Position numbers and translations under genes: made by a program. The notes under the pieces were generated by a model that was not told where the DNA came from, ran no database searches, and was given only the letters and a program-made list of their open reading frames with translations. Below, piece by piece: positions 59,599 through 63,654 of a stretch of 64,000 nucleotides of DNA (position 1 is the first letter of the stretch; each line of letters starts with the position of its first letter). Source of the DNA: Azonexus sp. R2A61 (GTDB taxonomy: Bacteria; Pseudomonadota; Gammaproteobacteria; Burkholderiales; Rhodocyclaceae); contig NZ_JACBFO010000007.1 in NCBI RefSeq assembly GCF_021401135.1, positions 62,001-126,000 of the forward strand. The letters are read 5' to 3'.

Positions 59599-61446
59599 TC
59601 AGCGTCGGCCGTTGGCCAAACGTTTGACGACGACCAGCAGGCGGTCGATTTCCTCGCAGGTGTTGTAGAACGCCAGCGACGGCCGCACCGTCTGTTCGAC
59701 GCCGAAACGACGCAGGATCGGCTGCGCGCAGTGATGCCCGGAGCGCACGGCGATGCCTTCCTCGTTGAGCGCCTTGCCGACTTCCTCGGTCGAGTAGCCG
59801 GCCAGCACGAAGGACGCCACGCTGGCCTTGTCCGCCGCCGTGCCGATCAGGCGCACACCGGGAATCGCAGACAGCCCGCGCATCGCATAAACCAGCAGAT
59901 CGTGCTCGTAGCGGGCGATGTTCTCCAGGCCGATGCGCTCGACGTAATCGAGCGCCGCGCCCAGACCGACCGCGTCGGCGATGTTGCCGGTGCCCGCTTC
60001 GAACTTGTTCGGTGCCGGCTGGAACAGCGTCTTCTCGAAGGTCACGTCGGCGATCATGTTGCCGCCACCCTGCCAGGGCGGCATCTGCTCCAGGATCGCC
60101 TTCTTGCCGTAAACCACGCCGATGCCGGTCGGGCCGAAAATCTTGTGGCCCGAGAACACGAAGAAATCCGCGTCCAGCGCCTGCACGTTCACCCGCAGAT
60201 GCGACACCGACTGCGCGCCGTCGACCAGCACCTTGGCGCCGGCCGCGTGGGCCATGTCGATCACCTGCTTAATCGGCGTCACCGTGCCCAGCGCGTTCGA
60301 GACCTGCGTCACCGAAACGAGCTTGACCTTCGGCCCGAGCAGCTTCTGGTACTCGTCCAGACGCAGCTGGCCGGTGTCGTCGACCGGGATGACCTTGATC
60401 TTGGCGCCGACCTGCGCCGCCAGTTGCTGCCAGGGGACGATGTTGGCGTGGTGTTCGAGCAGCGAGACGATGATCTCGTCGCCCTCGACTATGTTCTGCA
60501 CGCCCCAGGTCTTGGCGACCAGGTTGATGGCTTCCGTCGCGCCGCGCACGAAGATGATCTCGTCGCTGGAACCGGCGCCGAGGAAGCGTTGCACCTTGTT
60601 GCGCGCGGCTTCGTAGGCGTCGGTGGCACGCGCCGCCAGTTCATGCGCCGCTCGGTGAATGTTGGAATTCTCGTGGGCGTAGAAGTAGGCGAGGCGGTCG
60701 ATGACGGATTGCGGCTTCTGCGTCGTCGCGGCGTTGTCGAACCAGACCAGCGGCTTGCCGTTCACCCGCTCCTGCAGGATCGGGAAGTCGCGGCGGACGG
60801 CGTTGACGTCGAAGGGCGGTCGCGCACTCGGTGCAATTTCCGGCTCCCGCGCCGTGGCGTCGAGGAAATAGAAATTGCCCGAATGTTGCGGTCGACCGTG
60901 GAAATCGTCCGTTTTCCGTTCGCCGGCAATCTCGGCCAGCAAGGCATGCAGTTCGCCGTCGCCCGGCAAACCGAATGGCTGCGCGACAACGCGGTTTTCC
61001 GGCACCTTGGGCGCGGCCGCCTGCTGATAGGGACTGGCTTCGCCGAGGAAATAGTACGGCGAGCCGGGAACCGAAACAGGCAAAGTCAGCGGCAGGCTGT
61101 CGATGAAGCTGCTCGGCGGCTGCGGCGGCGCCACCGGCGGCAAGGCGGCCGCGTAGGCTTCCGGCACGCCGAGTTCGCCACCGCCACCACCGACCGGATC
61201 GACCGGGTCCGGCGCCACCGGCACCGGTGCCACGCTCGGGCCAGACTGGATCAGGCTGGGCTCCGGCGCTGGCGTGCTGCCGGCAGCAAGCGAGCTTGGC
61301 AGATCGAAAGACGGCAACGCGGCCCCCGGCAAGGCGCGGAAGAATTCCGAGGCCAGCCGGCCAAGCGTGGCTTCATCCGGGATGCCGGGCACAGGCGCGC
61401 CGGACAGCCCTTCGACGCCCTTACTTGTAGGTGTCGGGATAGTCAT
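59599..61446 (-). CDS. Encapsulin-cargo cysteine desulfurase with long N-terminal targeting domain
   Basis: The 615-residue protein has two parts. Residues 1 to about 205 are a Pro/Ala/Gly-rich, probably disordered extension with islands of conservation (TLGRLASEFFRALPG at 27-41; FIDSLPLTLPVS and SPYYFLGEASPYQ near 130-155). From about 213 it is a SufS-type (group II) desulfurase, with the PLP Lys435 in FSGHKIFGPTGIGVVYGK and the catalytic Cys573 in RSGHHCAQPIL. It converts cysteine to alanine and a persulfide or sulfur. Its ATG lies inside the shell gene (26-base overlap). Such extensions load the enzyme into family 2A encapsulins. Confidence 0.93.
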   Translation of the reverse strand: MTIPTPTSKGVEGLSGAPVPGIPDEATLGRLASEFFRALPGAALPSFDLPSSLAAGSTPAPEPSLIQSGPSVAPVPVAPDPVDPVGGGGGELGVPEAYAAALPPVAPPQPPSSFIDSLPLTLPVSVPGSPYYFLGEASPYQQAAAPKVPENRVVAQPFGLPGDGELHALLAEIAGERKTDDFHGRPQHSGNFYFLDATAREPEIAPSARPPFDVNAVRRDFPILQERVNGKPLVWFDNAATTQKPQSVIDRLAYFYAHENSNIHRAAHELAARATDAYEAARNKVQRFLGAGSSDEIIFVRGATEAINLVAKTWGVQNIVEGDEIIVSLLEHHANIVPWQQLAAQVGAKIKVIPVDDTGQLRLDEYQKLLGPKVKLVSVTQVSNALGTVTPIKQVIDMAHAAGAKVLVDGAQSVSHLRVNVQALDADFFVFSGHKIFGPTGIGVVYGKKAILEQMPPWQGGGNMIADVTFEKTLFQPAPNKFEAGTGNIADAVGLGAALDYVERIGLENIARYEHDLLVYAMRGLSAIPGVRLIGTAADKASVASFVLAGYSTEEVGKALNEEGIAVRSGHHCAQPILRRFGVEQTVRPSLAFYNTCEEIDRLLVVVKRLANGRR

Positions 61447-62347
61447 GGTACTTGCCGATCTCCACGTCATCGAGAACTGCCAGTGCATCCGGAACCAGCA
61501 CGGCCAGCGAGCAATACAGCGAAATCAGGTAGGACGCGATGGCGTTGCGGTTGATGCCCATGAAGCGTACCGACAGGCCCGGCGACTGCTCGCCGGCGAG
61601 GCCCGGCTGGAACAGGCCGACCACGCCCTGGCGTTTCTCGCCGACGCGCAGCAGCAAAATCTTGGTTTTTCCGCCGTCGACCGGAACCTTGTCCGACGGG
61701 ATCAGCGGAATGCCGCGCCAGGTCAGGAACTGCGCGCCGAACAGCGAAACGGTCGGCGGCGGCACGCCGCGGCGGGTGCACTCGCGGCCGAAGGCGGCGA
61801 TGGCCAGCGGATGGGCGAGGAAGAAAGCCGGCTCCTTCCAGACCTTGGTCAGCAGCTCGTCGAGGTCGTCCGGCATCGGCGCGCCGGTCAGCGTCGAGAT
61901 GATCTGGTCGTCGGCGACGTTGGCCAAGAGGCCGTAATCCGGGTTGTTGATCAGCTCGGATTCCTGGCGCTCCTTGATCGTCTCGATGGTCAGGCGGAGT
62001 TGTTCCTTGATCTGGTCGTGCGGGCTGGAATAGAGGTCGGAAACACGGGTATGGACGTCGAGGATGGTGGTGACGGCATTGAGGAAGTATTCACGCGGTT
62101 GCTCGTCGTAATCAACATAGGTCTGCGGCAGCTCCGACTCGTCGCGCTGCGAGCACGCAACCCGCACGTCGCGCGGGTTCTTGACGGTATTCAGGCGATA
62201 GATACCAGCTTCAACCGGCAGCCATTGCAGCAGATGCACCAGCCAGCGCGGGGTGATCGTCGACAGCTGGGCCGTCGTCTTGGTCGCATTGGCTAGCTGC
62301 CGTGCGGCGGCATCGCCGAGGGCGGTGGGTTCGGGGGTCTGGGCCAT
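61421..62347 (-). CDS. Family 2A encapsulin shell protein (SrpI-like)
   Basis: The 308-residue protein matches the SrpI-type family 2A encapsulins in length and in segments such as LVHLLQWLPVEAGIYRLNTVKNP, REYFLNAVTTILDVHTRVSDLYSSPHDQ, FLTWRGIPLIPSDKVPV and FMGINRNAIASYLISLYCSLAVL (quoted in parts). It has the HK97-like fold with no cyclic-nucleotide insertion, so it is 2A rather than 2B. About 60 copies should form a hollow shell around the desulfurase encoded next. AAGGAG precedes the ATG. A 117-base gap separates it from the XRE gene. Confidence 0.93.
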   Translation of the reverse strand: MAQTPEPTALGDAAARQLANATKTTAQLSTITPRWLVHLLQWLPVEAGIYRLNTVKNPRDVRVACSQRDESELPQTYVDYDEQPREYFLNAVTTILDVHTRVSDLYSSPHDQIKEQLRLTIETIKERQESELINNPDYGLLANVADDQIISTLTGAPMPDDLDELLTKVWKEPAFFLAHPLAIAAFGRECTRRGVPPPTVSLFGAQFLTWRGIPLIPSDKVPVDGGKTKILLLRVGEKRQGVVGLFQPGLAGEQSPGLSVRFMGINRNAIASYLISLYCSLAVLVPDALAVLDDVEIGKYHDYPDTYK

Positions 62348-62464: not shown

Positions 62465-62692
62465 TCAGGCCGGTCGTTGCTCGCAATGTGCAAGCAGCCC
62501 GGAGAGCGGCAGATCCAGCGCCGAAGCCAGCTTCGCGGCGGTGGCCAGCGACGGCATCGCATCGCCGCGCTCGACCTCGCCGAGATAGGAACGATTGAGA
62601 TCGGCACGCTCCGCCAGCAACTCCTGGGACCAGCCGCGCTGTTCGCGGAAATGCCGAACCGAGGCGCCGAAATCGTCGATCTGTCGGCTCAT
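62465..62692 (-). CDS. Small XRE-family regulator
   Basis: The 75-residue protein is almost entirely a helix-turn-helix domain: FGASVRHFREQRGWSQELLAERADLNRSYLGEVERGDAMPS (quoted in parts, about residues 8-48), with a C-terminal AAKLASALDLPLSGLLAHC helix. It has no ligand domain. Its ATG shares one base with the epsC stop (TGATG). A longer open frame upstream overlaps epsC and has no match. It probably regulates this operon or the promoter in the following gap. Confidence 0.8.
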   Translation of the reverse strand: MSRQIDDFGASVRHFREQRGWSQELLAERADLNRSYLGEVERGDAMPSLATAAKLASALDLPLSGLLAHCEQRPA

Positions 62693-63654
62693 CACGCCAC
62701 CCTCCTCGGCTGCGCCGGCTCCTGTTGCAGGCTGGCCTGCGACACCTGGCTGCCCGGCGGCACGCTGCGGGTCAGCCAGACGTTGCCGCCGATGCTGGAG
62801 CCCTGGCCGATGACGATGCGTCCGAGGATGGTCGCGCCGGCATAGACCACCACGTCGTCCTCCAGTACCGGGTGCCGGGGTGCGCCCTTTTCCAGCGCGC
62901 CGCTCTCGTCGACCGTGAAACGTTTGGCACCCAGCGTGACCGCCTGGTAGAGGCGGACGCGCTCGCCGATGACGGTGGTTTCGCCGATCACCACGCCGGT
63001 GCCGTGGTCGATGAAAAAGCCGCCGCCGATGGTCGCGCCGGGATGGATGTCGATGCCGGTCGCCGAGTGGGCGATTTCGGACAGGATGCGGGCGATCAGC
63101 GGCACGCCCAGCGCATACAGCGCATGCGCCAGCCGGTAATGGATCACCGCCAGGATGCCCGGATAGCACAACAGCACCTCATCGACACTGCGGGCCGCCG
63201 GATCGCCGAGGTAGGCCGCCTCGACATCGCTGTCGAGCATCCGCCGGATGGCCGGCAACTCCCCGGCAAAGCGTTTGACGATTTCCGCCGCCTGCGTCTC
63301 GACGCCTTCCTTCTCGTCGCAATTCAGGCGCCGGTGGTAGCCCAGTTCCAGCTGCACTTGCTGGAACAGCGCGTTGAGCGCGCTATCCAGCGTATGGCCG
63401 ACATAGAAATCCTCGCCTTCCTGATGCAGGTCGGCCGGGCCCAGGCGCATCGGGAACAACACGCCGCACAGCGCCTCGGCAATCTGCTTCAGTGCATCGC
63501 GCGACGGAAACTCACGTACGGCGAACTCGCGCGAACGCTGCTGCGCGGCCCGCCAGTTATCGCGCGCCAAACGCAGTTCGGCAACGATGTCCTTGACGCC
63601 CCAGCCGCCGAGCTGCGCGTAAGCCGGGGAGGAACCGGGCGCACCGATCGTCAT
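62692..63654 (-). CDS. epsC: Serine O-acetyltransferase (EpsC type)
   Basis: The enzyme acetylates serine from acetyl-CoA, giving O-acetylserine for cysteine synthesis. The 320-residue protein has a long helical N-terminal half and a C-terminal hexapeptide beta helix with [34 protein letters not shown] and [18 protein letters not shown]. The extended length fits EpsC-type forms rather than compact CysE. It overlaps the cysK stop as ATGA, so the two cysteine-making steps are coupled. These genes feed the encapsulated desulfurase. Confidence 0.92.

Follow-up and report, generated by a model that had tools for sequence, protein, structure and literature searches.

What is the purpose of some 200 flexible residues placed ahead of a cysteine desulfurase whose gene begins inside that of an encapsulin shell protein? 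This question is raised by a stretch of 64,000 nucleotides from Azonexus sp. R2A61 (contig NZ_JACBFO010000007.1, positions 62,001 to 126,000; hereafter, the window), in which the desulfurase and all the features given below are encoded on the minus strand. Our analyses suggest, with a probability of roughly 0.85 and by homology with an arm tested experimentally in Synechococcus elongatus, that the desulfurase is encapsulated and that this extension serves as the arm by which it is loaded into the shell as cargo.

The desulfurase gene (59599..61446) encodes a cysteine desulfurase cargo protein (CyD) of 615 amino acids counted from the ATG at 61446. The protein matches the NCBIfam model NF041166 (f2_encap_cargo1) over residues 13-610 with 910.7 bits, passing the curated cut-off of 800. 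Its PLP-dependent catalytic domain (residues 212-615, 59602..60813) scores 493.3 bits against Pfam PF00266 and, together with a score of 563.5 bits against TIGR01979, above the cut-off of that model, places the enzyme among the SufS-type desulfurases. H434, K435 and C573, which we take to be the catalytic positions with roles as in SufS, are invariant in the 56 sequences aligned. The adjoining gene (61421..62347) encodes a family 2A encapsulin shell protein of 308 amino acids, with 540.8 bits against NF041162 (cut-off 380) and a single, SrpI-like Pfam match (PF19307). This protein also passes the cut-off of 400 of the family 2B model NF041163 with 425.5 bits. An assignment to family 2B, whose shells carry a cNMP-binding insertion, was rejected because the best stretch corresponds only to model positions 210-449 of 450, the NF041162 score is higher and the sole Pfam match is SrpI-like.

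The surroundings of this pair are shared with related loci. A shell-profile scan of genome contigs provided 572 loci, of which the best 80, mostly from Betaproteobacteria judging by the record titles, were compared. In 79 of these best 80, a desulfurase lies directly downstream of the shell; in the remaining one (L127), the contig ends 162 nt past the shell gene and contains no desulfurase. In the window, a serine O-acetyltransferase-like gene (62692..63654; PF00132 hexapeptide, 36.5 bits) is followed by a gene for a helix-turn-helix protein of 75 amino acids (62465..62692; PF01381, 58.2 bits), located between the acetyltransferase and shell genes. Homologues of the acetyltransferase were found in 71 of the best 80 loci, and the shells of relatives are adjoined by genes annotated as epsC or cysE. 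In 44 of the best 80, the shell gene is preceded by one for a homologue of the helix-turn-helix protein, which, therefore, may act as the regulator of the operon. A partial gene at the end of the window is presumably the terminus of a cysteine synthase gene, and CysK homologues were detected in 14 of the best 80 loci. For the analyses of the arm, the best 80 loci were complemented with 12 from the order of the window, four from plasmids and three from the phylum, resulting in 98 loci in addition to the window; of the 102 examined, L127, L136 (family 2B), L051 (without a shell) and L016 (open 5' end) were left out.

The shell and cargo genes overlap by 26 nt (61421..61446), in agreement with the earlier note on this DNA, which had located the ATG of the desulfurase within the shell gene. 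Of the 98 other loci, 71 have an in-frame ATG that gives precisely this overlap. The start at 61446 is not certain because a second in-frame ATG, at 61488, would extend the overlap to 68 nt; this position has an ATG in 34 of the 98 loci, and in a Variovorax relative, devoid of an ATG at the 26-nt position, the NCBI annotation uses the 68-nt overlap. Such an overlapping start would probably couple cargo translation to that of the shell. Synonymous change is nearly absent (dS 0.1 or 0) from the eight or nine codons at the beginning of the desulfurase gene, which overlap the shell gene; therefore, the conserved N-terminus MTIPTPTS is probably a consequence of the last codons of the shell gene and has little bearing on the arm.

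The catalytic part of the desulfurase starts at FDVNAVRRD, and the disordered arm that precedes it covers residues 1-211 (60814..61446), close to the Pro/Ala/Gly-rich extension of about 205 residues originally described. Proline, alanine, glycine and serine make up 50.2% of the arm vs 28.5% of the catalytic part, with 18% Pro, 13% Ala and 10% Gly in the arm. We modelled the protein with AlphaFold2 using 56 sequences, namely the window and 55 of the best 80 of the 572 loci, with at most three per cluster and omitting broken or truncated genes. The mean pLDDT was 73, with values below 50 over residues 1-18, 42-162 and 176-207 and high confidence from about residue 211. Within the arm, helices were predicted only at residues 25-38 (blocks of 77-78) and 163-175 (block of 62), corresponding to the islands A and D described below. 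The low pLDDT over 42-162 and 176-207 rules out an arm ordered as a continuation of the catalytic domain. A search of PDB sequences for a solved structure of the arm returned two chance-level matches (E 0.35 and 0.7).

Two motifs of such arms, LARLANEFFS and AASPYYFLDG, are reported from most SrpI-associated desulfurases by Nichols et al. 2021 (PMC8049743). Both are recognizable in the window, the first as LGRLASEFFR (BLOSUM score 34, p 0.003, the minimum possible with 300 shuffles) and the second as PGSPYYFLGE (p 0.003), of which NFYFLDA represents a second copy. The first motif belongs to island A, GIPDEATLGRLASEFFRALPG (residues 21-41, 61324..61386), which includes the predicted helix 25-38. 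It is followed by island B, LGVPEAYAAALP (residues 92-103, 61138..61173), recognized by a held-out profile and with the pattern GVPEAYAAALP, and by island C, SPYYFLGEASPY (residues 129-140, 61027..61062), which corresponds to the second published motif and is the distal YFL copy. Island D, ENRVVAQPFGLPGDGELHALLAEIA (residues 150-174, 60925..60999), was also recognized by a held-out profile, has the pattern ENRVVAQPFGLPG.GELHALL and contains the predicted helix 163-175. The proximal YFL copy, island C' (NFYFLDA, residues 191-197, 60856..60876), was placed by the position of its YF motif. The arm thus reads helix A, B, YFL, helix D, YFL, with drifting Pro/Ala/Gly-rich linkers between them. The earlier note had proposed two conserved islands separated by a variable linker. 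Its first island persists as island A, which exceeds shuffled sequences in most arm clusters. Its second island is conserved in the half formed by SPYYFLGEASPY, but its first half, FIDSLPLTLPVS (61072..61107), shows gaps and substitutions even when compared with just the four closest relatives and is linker. The sequence between the two islands does drift, but three further islands (B, D and C') interrupt the proposed linker.

To quantify this conservation, arms were grouped into 48 clusters at 55% identity of the shorter arm, clusters that are not fully independent of each other. Each arm was started at the ATG nearest the 26-nt overlap, with the start of L042 shifted upstream by hand. The broken genes of L055 and L050 were kept as cluster representatives, as were L084, L085 and L113, in which the contig ends inside the enzyme. 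The published consensus LARLANEFFS scored above shuffles of the same arm (p<0.01) in 44 of the 48 representatives, failing in four, S. elongatus included, and AASPYYFLDG did so in 37, failing in 11. With held-out profiles, significant matches (p<0.01) were obtained in 47/48 clusters for A, 24/48 for B, 42/48 for C and 33/48 for D. In 44 of the 48 clusters, the enzyme is preceded by a YF motif at a distance of 20-50 residues; a distal one is found in 31 and both are present in 29, the expectation from shuffled arms being 0.02 [FYLW]YF per arm. All five islands co-exist in 20 of the 48 clusters, and in all 20 they follow the order A, B, C, D, C'. At the residue level, conservation in 56 full-length sequences is complete or reaches at least 90% for L28, L31, A32, F36, Y132, F133, Y193 and F194. 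An alignment of desulfurase arms beside family 2A shells had been proposed together with the two islands; once made, it shows islands conserved among orthologues above the linker background.

The arm-bearing enzyme also co-occurs with the shell. Among 150 genomes sampled from the order, the shell was found in 14, and a cargo above the NF041166 cut-off in 13 of these 14 but in none of the 136 genomes without a shell; this co-occurrence must be read as that of the arm plus enzyme, rather than of single islands, because the NF041166 cut-off favours arm-bearing proteins. In the fourteenth genome (G049), the desulfurase is split into two open frames. In two loci, L050 (6232-7934) and L055 (6823-7915), which come from G049 and a Propionivibrio MAG, the desulfurase frame is interrupted within the catalytic domain and the shell frame is intact over its full length, which reflects either a sequencing error or a real loss.

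A disordered N-terminal extension of about 200 residues, as found here, would set CyD-type proteins apart from ordinary desulfurases. In 17 ordinary SufS-type genes of the order (those among 30 loci listed, rather than the full set of the order), the open frame preceding the enzyme contains no YF motif; in the 12 of them long enough to be scored, the island A motif reaches at most 1.1 bits, compared to at least 16.1 bits in A-bearing arms. We also considered, and discarded, another cargo with such motifs encoded in this genome. A profile scan of the open frames of the window retrieved the desulfurase with 53.6 bits and, as next best, a frame with 13.0 bits, and a genome search using the entire arm as query (E up to 10), which could miss a lone 21-residue motif elsewhere, matched only the arm itself.

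Some desulfurases beside family 2B shells display related features. In four loci from one genus (L154-L157), the arm is 260-285 residues long and has a YYFL at a distance of 45 residues from the enzyme, together with a helix-like DLVGRLAREIYGQG close to its beginning. The island C profile recognized this YYFL with p<0.01 in three loci and 0.014 in the other (range 0.001-0.014). The island A profile had its best match at DLVGRLAREIYGQG in three of them, without significance (p 0.42-0.69), and elsewhere in the fourth (p 0.004). The family 2B locus of Kitasatospora (L136) had no significant island.

How the islands could contribute to loading is best considered in light of the S. elongatus system. 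According to PMC8049743, the arm of the SrpI-associated desulfurase is disordered, comprises 225 residues, and is necessary and sufficient for bringing cargo into the SrpI shell. Residues 1-100 load, although less well than the full arm, and the fragment 155-183, with the YFL motif alone, fails to do so. Cargo density was located in the shell interior, at the three-fold axis and close to F262 and Y273 (PMC8049743). These two residues are invariant in the 99 shells of our dataset, which is weak evidence because 98 columns of the shell alignment have an identity of 99% or more. In the arm of the window, the spacing of L28, L31, A32 and F36 fits one helix face, and helix A, in which these residues are near-invariant, could be the main grip on the inner wall of the shell. 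Helix D may likewise grip the wall, but more weakly, and the YFL motifs could act as stickers adding avidity, or as a second contact. One flexible chain would then reach several equivalent shell sites, leaving the enzyme hanging free in the lumen. This division between helical grips and YFL stickers fits the S. elongatus fragments because the loading fragment 1-100 contains two A-like stretches and no YFL, while the fragment 155-183, which does not load, contains its only YFL. The suggestion that several shell-binding motifs share a flexible arm is thus retained as regards a disordered arm with multiple motifs, three more than initially listed. Each island could in principle bind the shell, but contact by every one of them exceeds the evidence, since the YFL fragment of S. 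elongatus did not load.

Alternatively, shell binding could be restricted to island A, perhaps with D, and the YFL motifs would serve contacts with the catalytic dimer, packing between arms, or the recruitment of a sulfur acceptor such as the rhodanese that some of these operons encode. This is rather unlikely in our view, even if several observations point in its direction. Beyond the insufficiency of the fragment 155-183 in S. elongatus (as described in PMC8049743), the proximal YF copy keeps its distance of 20-50 residues from the enzyme in the 44 of 48 clusters mentioned above, is present in arms failing the B or D test (such as L044, L047, L048 and L090), and has a counterpart in the proximal YYFL, 45 residues before the enzyme, of the four desulfurases beside family 2B shells. 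In contrast, both YFL stretches are of low confidence in the AlphaFold2 model, although this is a monomer model that leaves room for dimer or partner contacts, and the complete S. elongatus arm is more efficient in loading than residues 1-100 alone (PMC8049743). We retain loading by the arm, with helical grips and YFL stickers, as the preferred reading.

The two helical islands resemble each other, sharing the pattern GLPxE..L..L. With a profile trained on D, island A was recovered in register in 37 of 47 arms, with p<0.01 in 32 of 47. In the reverse direction, the A profile applied to the rest of the arm reached p<0.01 in only 4 of 33 and was in register in 21 of 33, with 1 of 33 in the control from which D had been excised. 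Copy number also varies. L045 contains two A-like stretches (15.4 and 13.3 bits), and a tandem repeat of about 64 residues holding B and C was read by eye in L088 (6935-8962). The arm of L055, in front of a broken enzyme, is devoid of B and C and keeps A, D and C'. S. elongatus has a single YF motif, as do Azospirillum and several members of the order of the window, and a proximal and a distal copy are present in the 29 clusters mentioned above and in Acinetobacter baumannii. Together, the likeness of A and D, the arms with two A stretches, the tandem in L088, the loss in L055 and the stretches of Acinetobacter baumannii described below suggest repeating units of helix and YFL. We tentatively propose, as a possibility that is somewhat doubtful, that the arm is a repeating module in which a YFL sticker comes after a short helix (A or D), the number of copies depending on the lineage. 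If true, evolution would tune the avidity for the shell by the gain or loss of short modules in a modular arm.

A very different view is that the arm works by its bulk properties, as a flexible crowding spacer, the islands being remnants or phylogenetic coincidence. The linkers are indeed long and variable, and the shortest and longest arms among the 48 cluster representatives have 100 and 345 residues, values that depend on the start choice because starts were set at the ATG nearest the 26-nt overlap. Moreover, the arm encoded on the Aliarcobacter cibarius plasmid (L135, 4929-6437), of 100 residues, fails the tests for islands A, B, C and D. As an observation by eye, this arm is asparagine-rich and stands beside an annotated family 2A shell. 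It has either a different loading signal or strongly diverged, and the island motifs are therefore not universal. This bulk view is nevertheless highly improbable, as A, C and D exceed shuffles in most clusters and B in half of them, the clusters with five islands keep one order, and the islands evolve more slowly than the neighbouring linker at the protein level, with synonymous sites free to change.

The latter was estimated within three groups of the 99 sequences: the window with four close relatives (five sequences), eight Zoogloea-type loci and seven Janthinobacterium loci. In the group of the window, dN/dS was 0.06 for A, 0.06 for B, 0.02 for C, 0.15 for D and 0.02 for C', vs 0.39 for the linker, and the alignment has no gaps in the islands and 124 gap cells in the linker. 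The borders of A and C follow the motifs already published; those of B, D and C' were set in knowledge of the wider alignment, which makes the values of these three islands partly circular. In the Zoogloea-type loci, the islands range from 0.01 to 0.16 vs 0.45 in the linker. In the Janthinobacterium loci, dN/dS was 0.04 for A and 0.09 for C, and C' showed no extra constraint in this group (0.26, equal to the linker); the cluster of these sequences (L075) also fails the B and D profile tests. The idea that conservation stems from a second overlapping gene or a DNA signal, instead of the protein, has practically nothing left to explain beyond the first eight or nine codons, which overlap the shell gene and are nearly free of synonymous change, since dS in islands A to C' (0.75-1.4, group of the window) is not below that of the linker (0.72), which contradicts an overlapping-frame constraint outside 61421-61446.

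The arm and two of its motifs are mostly known since the 2021 description in S. elongatus, and what our analysis adds is modest: the map of five islands and the detail of their repetition. A literature search for YYFL and encapsulin found only Nichols et al. 2021, and a wider search on desulfurases and encapsulins listed nothing further on arm motifs; the sections of a 2025 paper on family 2B that we consulted (PMC12407261) held nothing on this arm. In the literature found, as far as the sections consulted go, the family 2A loading signal amounts to two motifs at most. The relevance of the system is broad, as family 2A encapsulins with desulfurase cargo span 12 phyla according to a 2021 survey (PMC8346489). 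The five-island map, the copy-number variants and the natural losses offer short testable peptides and a natural set of variants for studying arm-shell loading.

Regarding known systems, the arm resembles the targeting peptides of family 1 encapsulins in being a conserved motif-based signal that directs cargo into an HK97-fold shell (PMC8346489), but those peptides are short and C-terminal, as opposed to an N-terminal arm of 211 residues with several islands. In Foldseek, the catalytic domain matches SufS structures, the best being the Mycobacterium smegmatis cargo desulfurase (8kg1), with 70% identity and a TM-score of 0.97 by target, whose solved chain of 426 residues corresponds to the catalytic part, the match beginning at residue 206 of the protein in the window. 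The family 2A system of Acinetobacter baumannii is reportedly the topic of Benisch et al. 2024. From its DNA, we identified in the arm of that species, by eye and with the YF pattern, an A-like FPDESTIARLANEFFSAVP, ESPYYFLNDFS, a D-like AQSFQLPHGDQLKSLLTED and SSAFYFLDLP, thus the same kinds of elements set among linkers that differ from those of the window.

The closest parallel is the pair formed by CyD (Synpcc7942_B2661) and SrpI in S. elongatus PCC 7942. Both systems combine a SufS-type desulfurase with a disordered arm of similar length (225 vs 211 residues) containing a helix motif and a YFL motif, a desulfurase gene adjoining the shell gene, and acetyltransferase and cysteine synthase genes alongside (epsC and cysK in S. 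elongatus). They differ in that the S. elongatus genes are separated by a gap of 234 nt instead of overlapping, and in the composition of the arm: S. elongatus has two A-like stretches, starting at residues 83 (20.2 bits) and 20 (7.1 bits), and one YF motif at a distance of 47 residues from the enzyme, with neither B nor D reaching significance, whereas the arm of the window presents a single island A, two YFL copies and the additional islands B and D.
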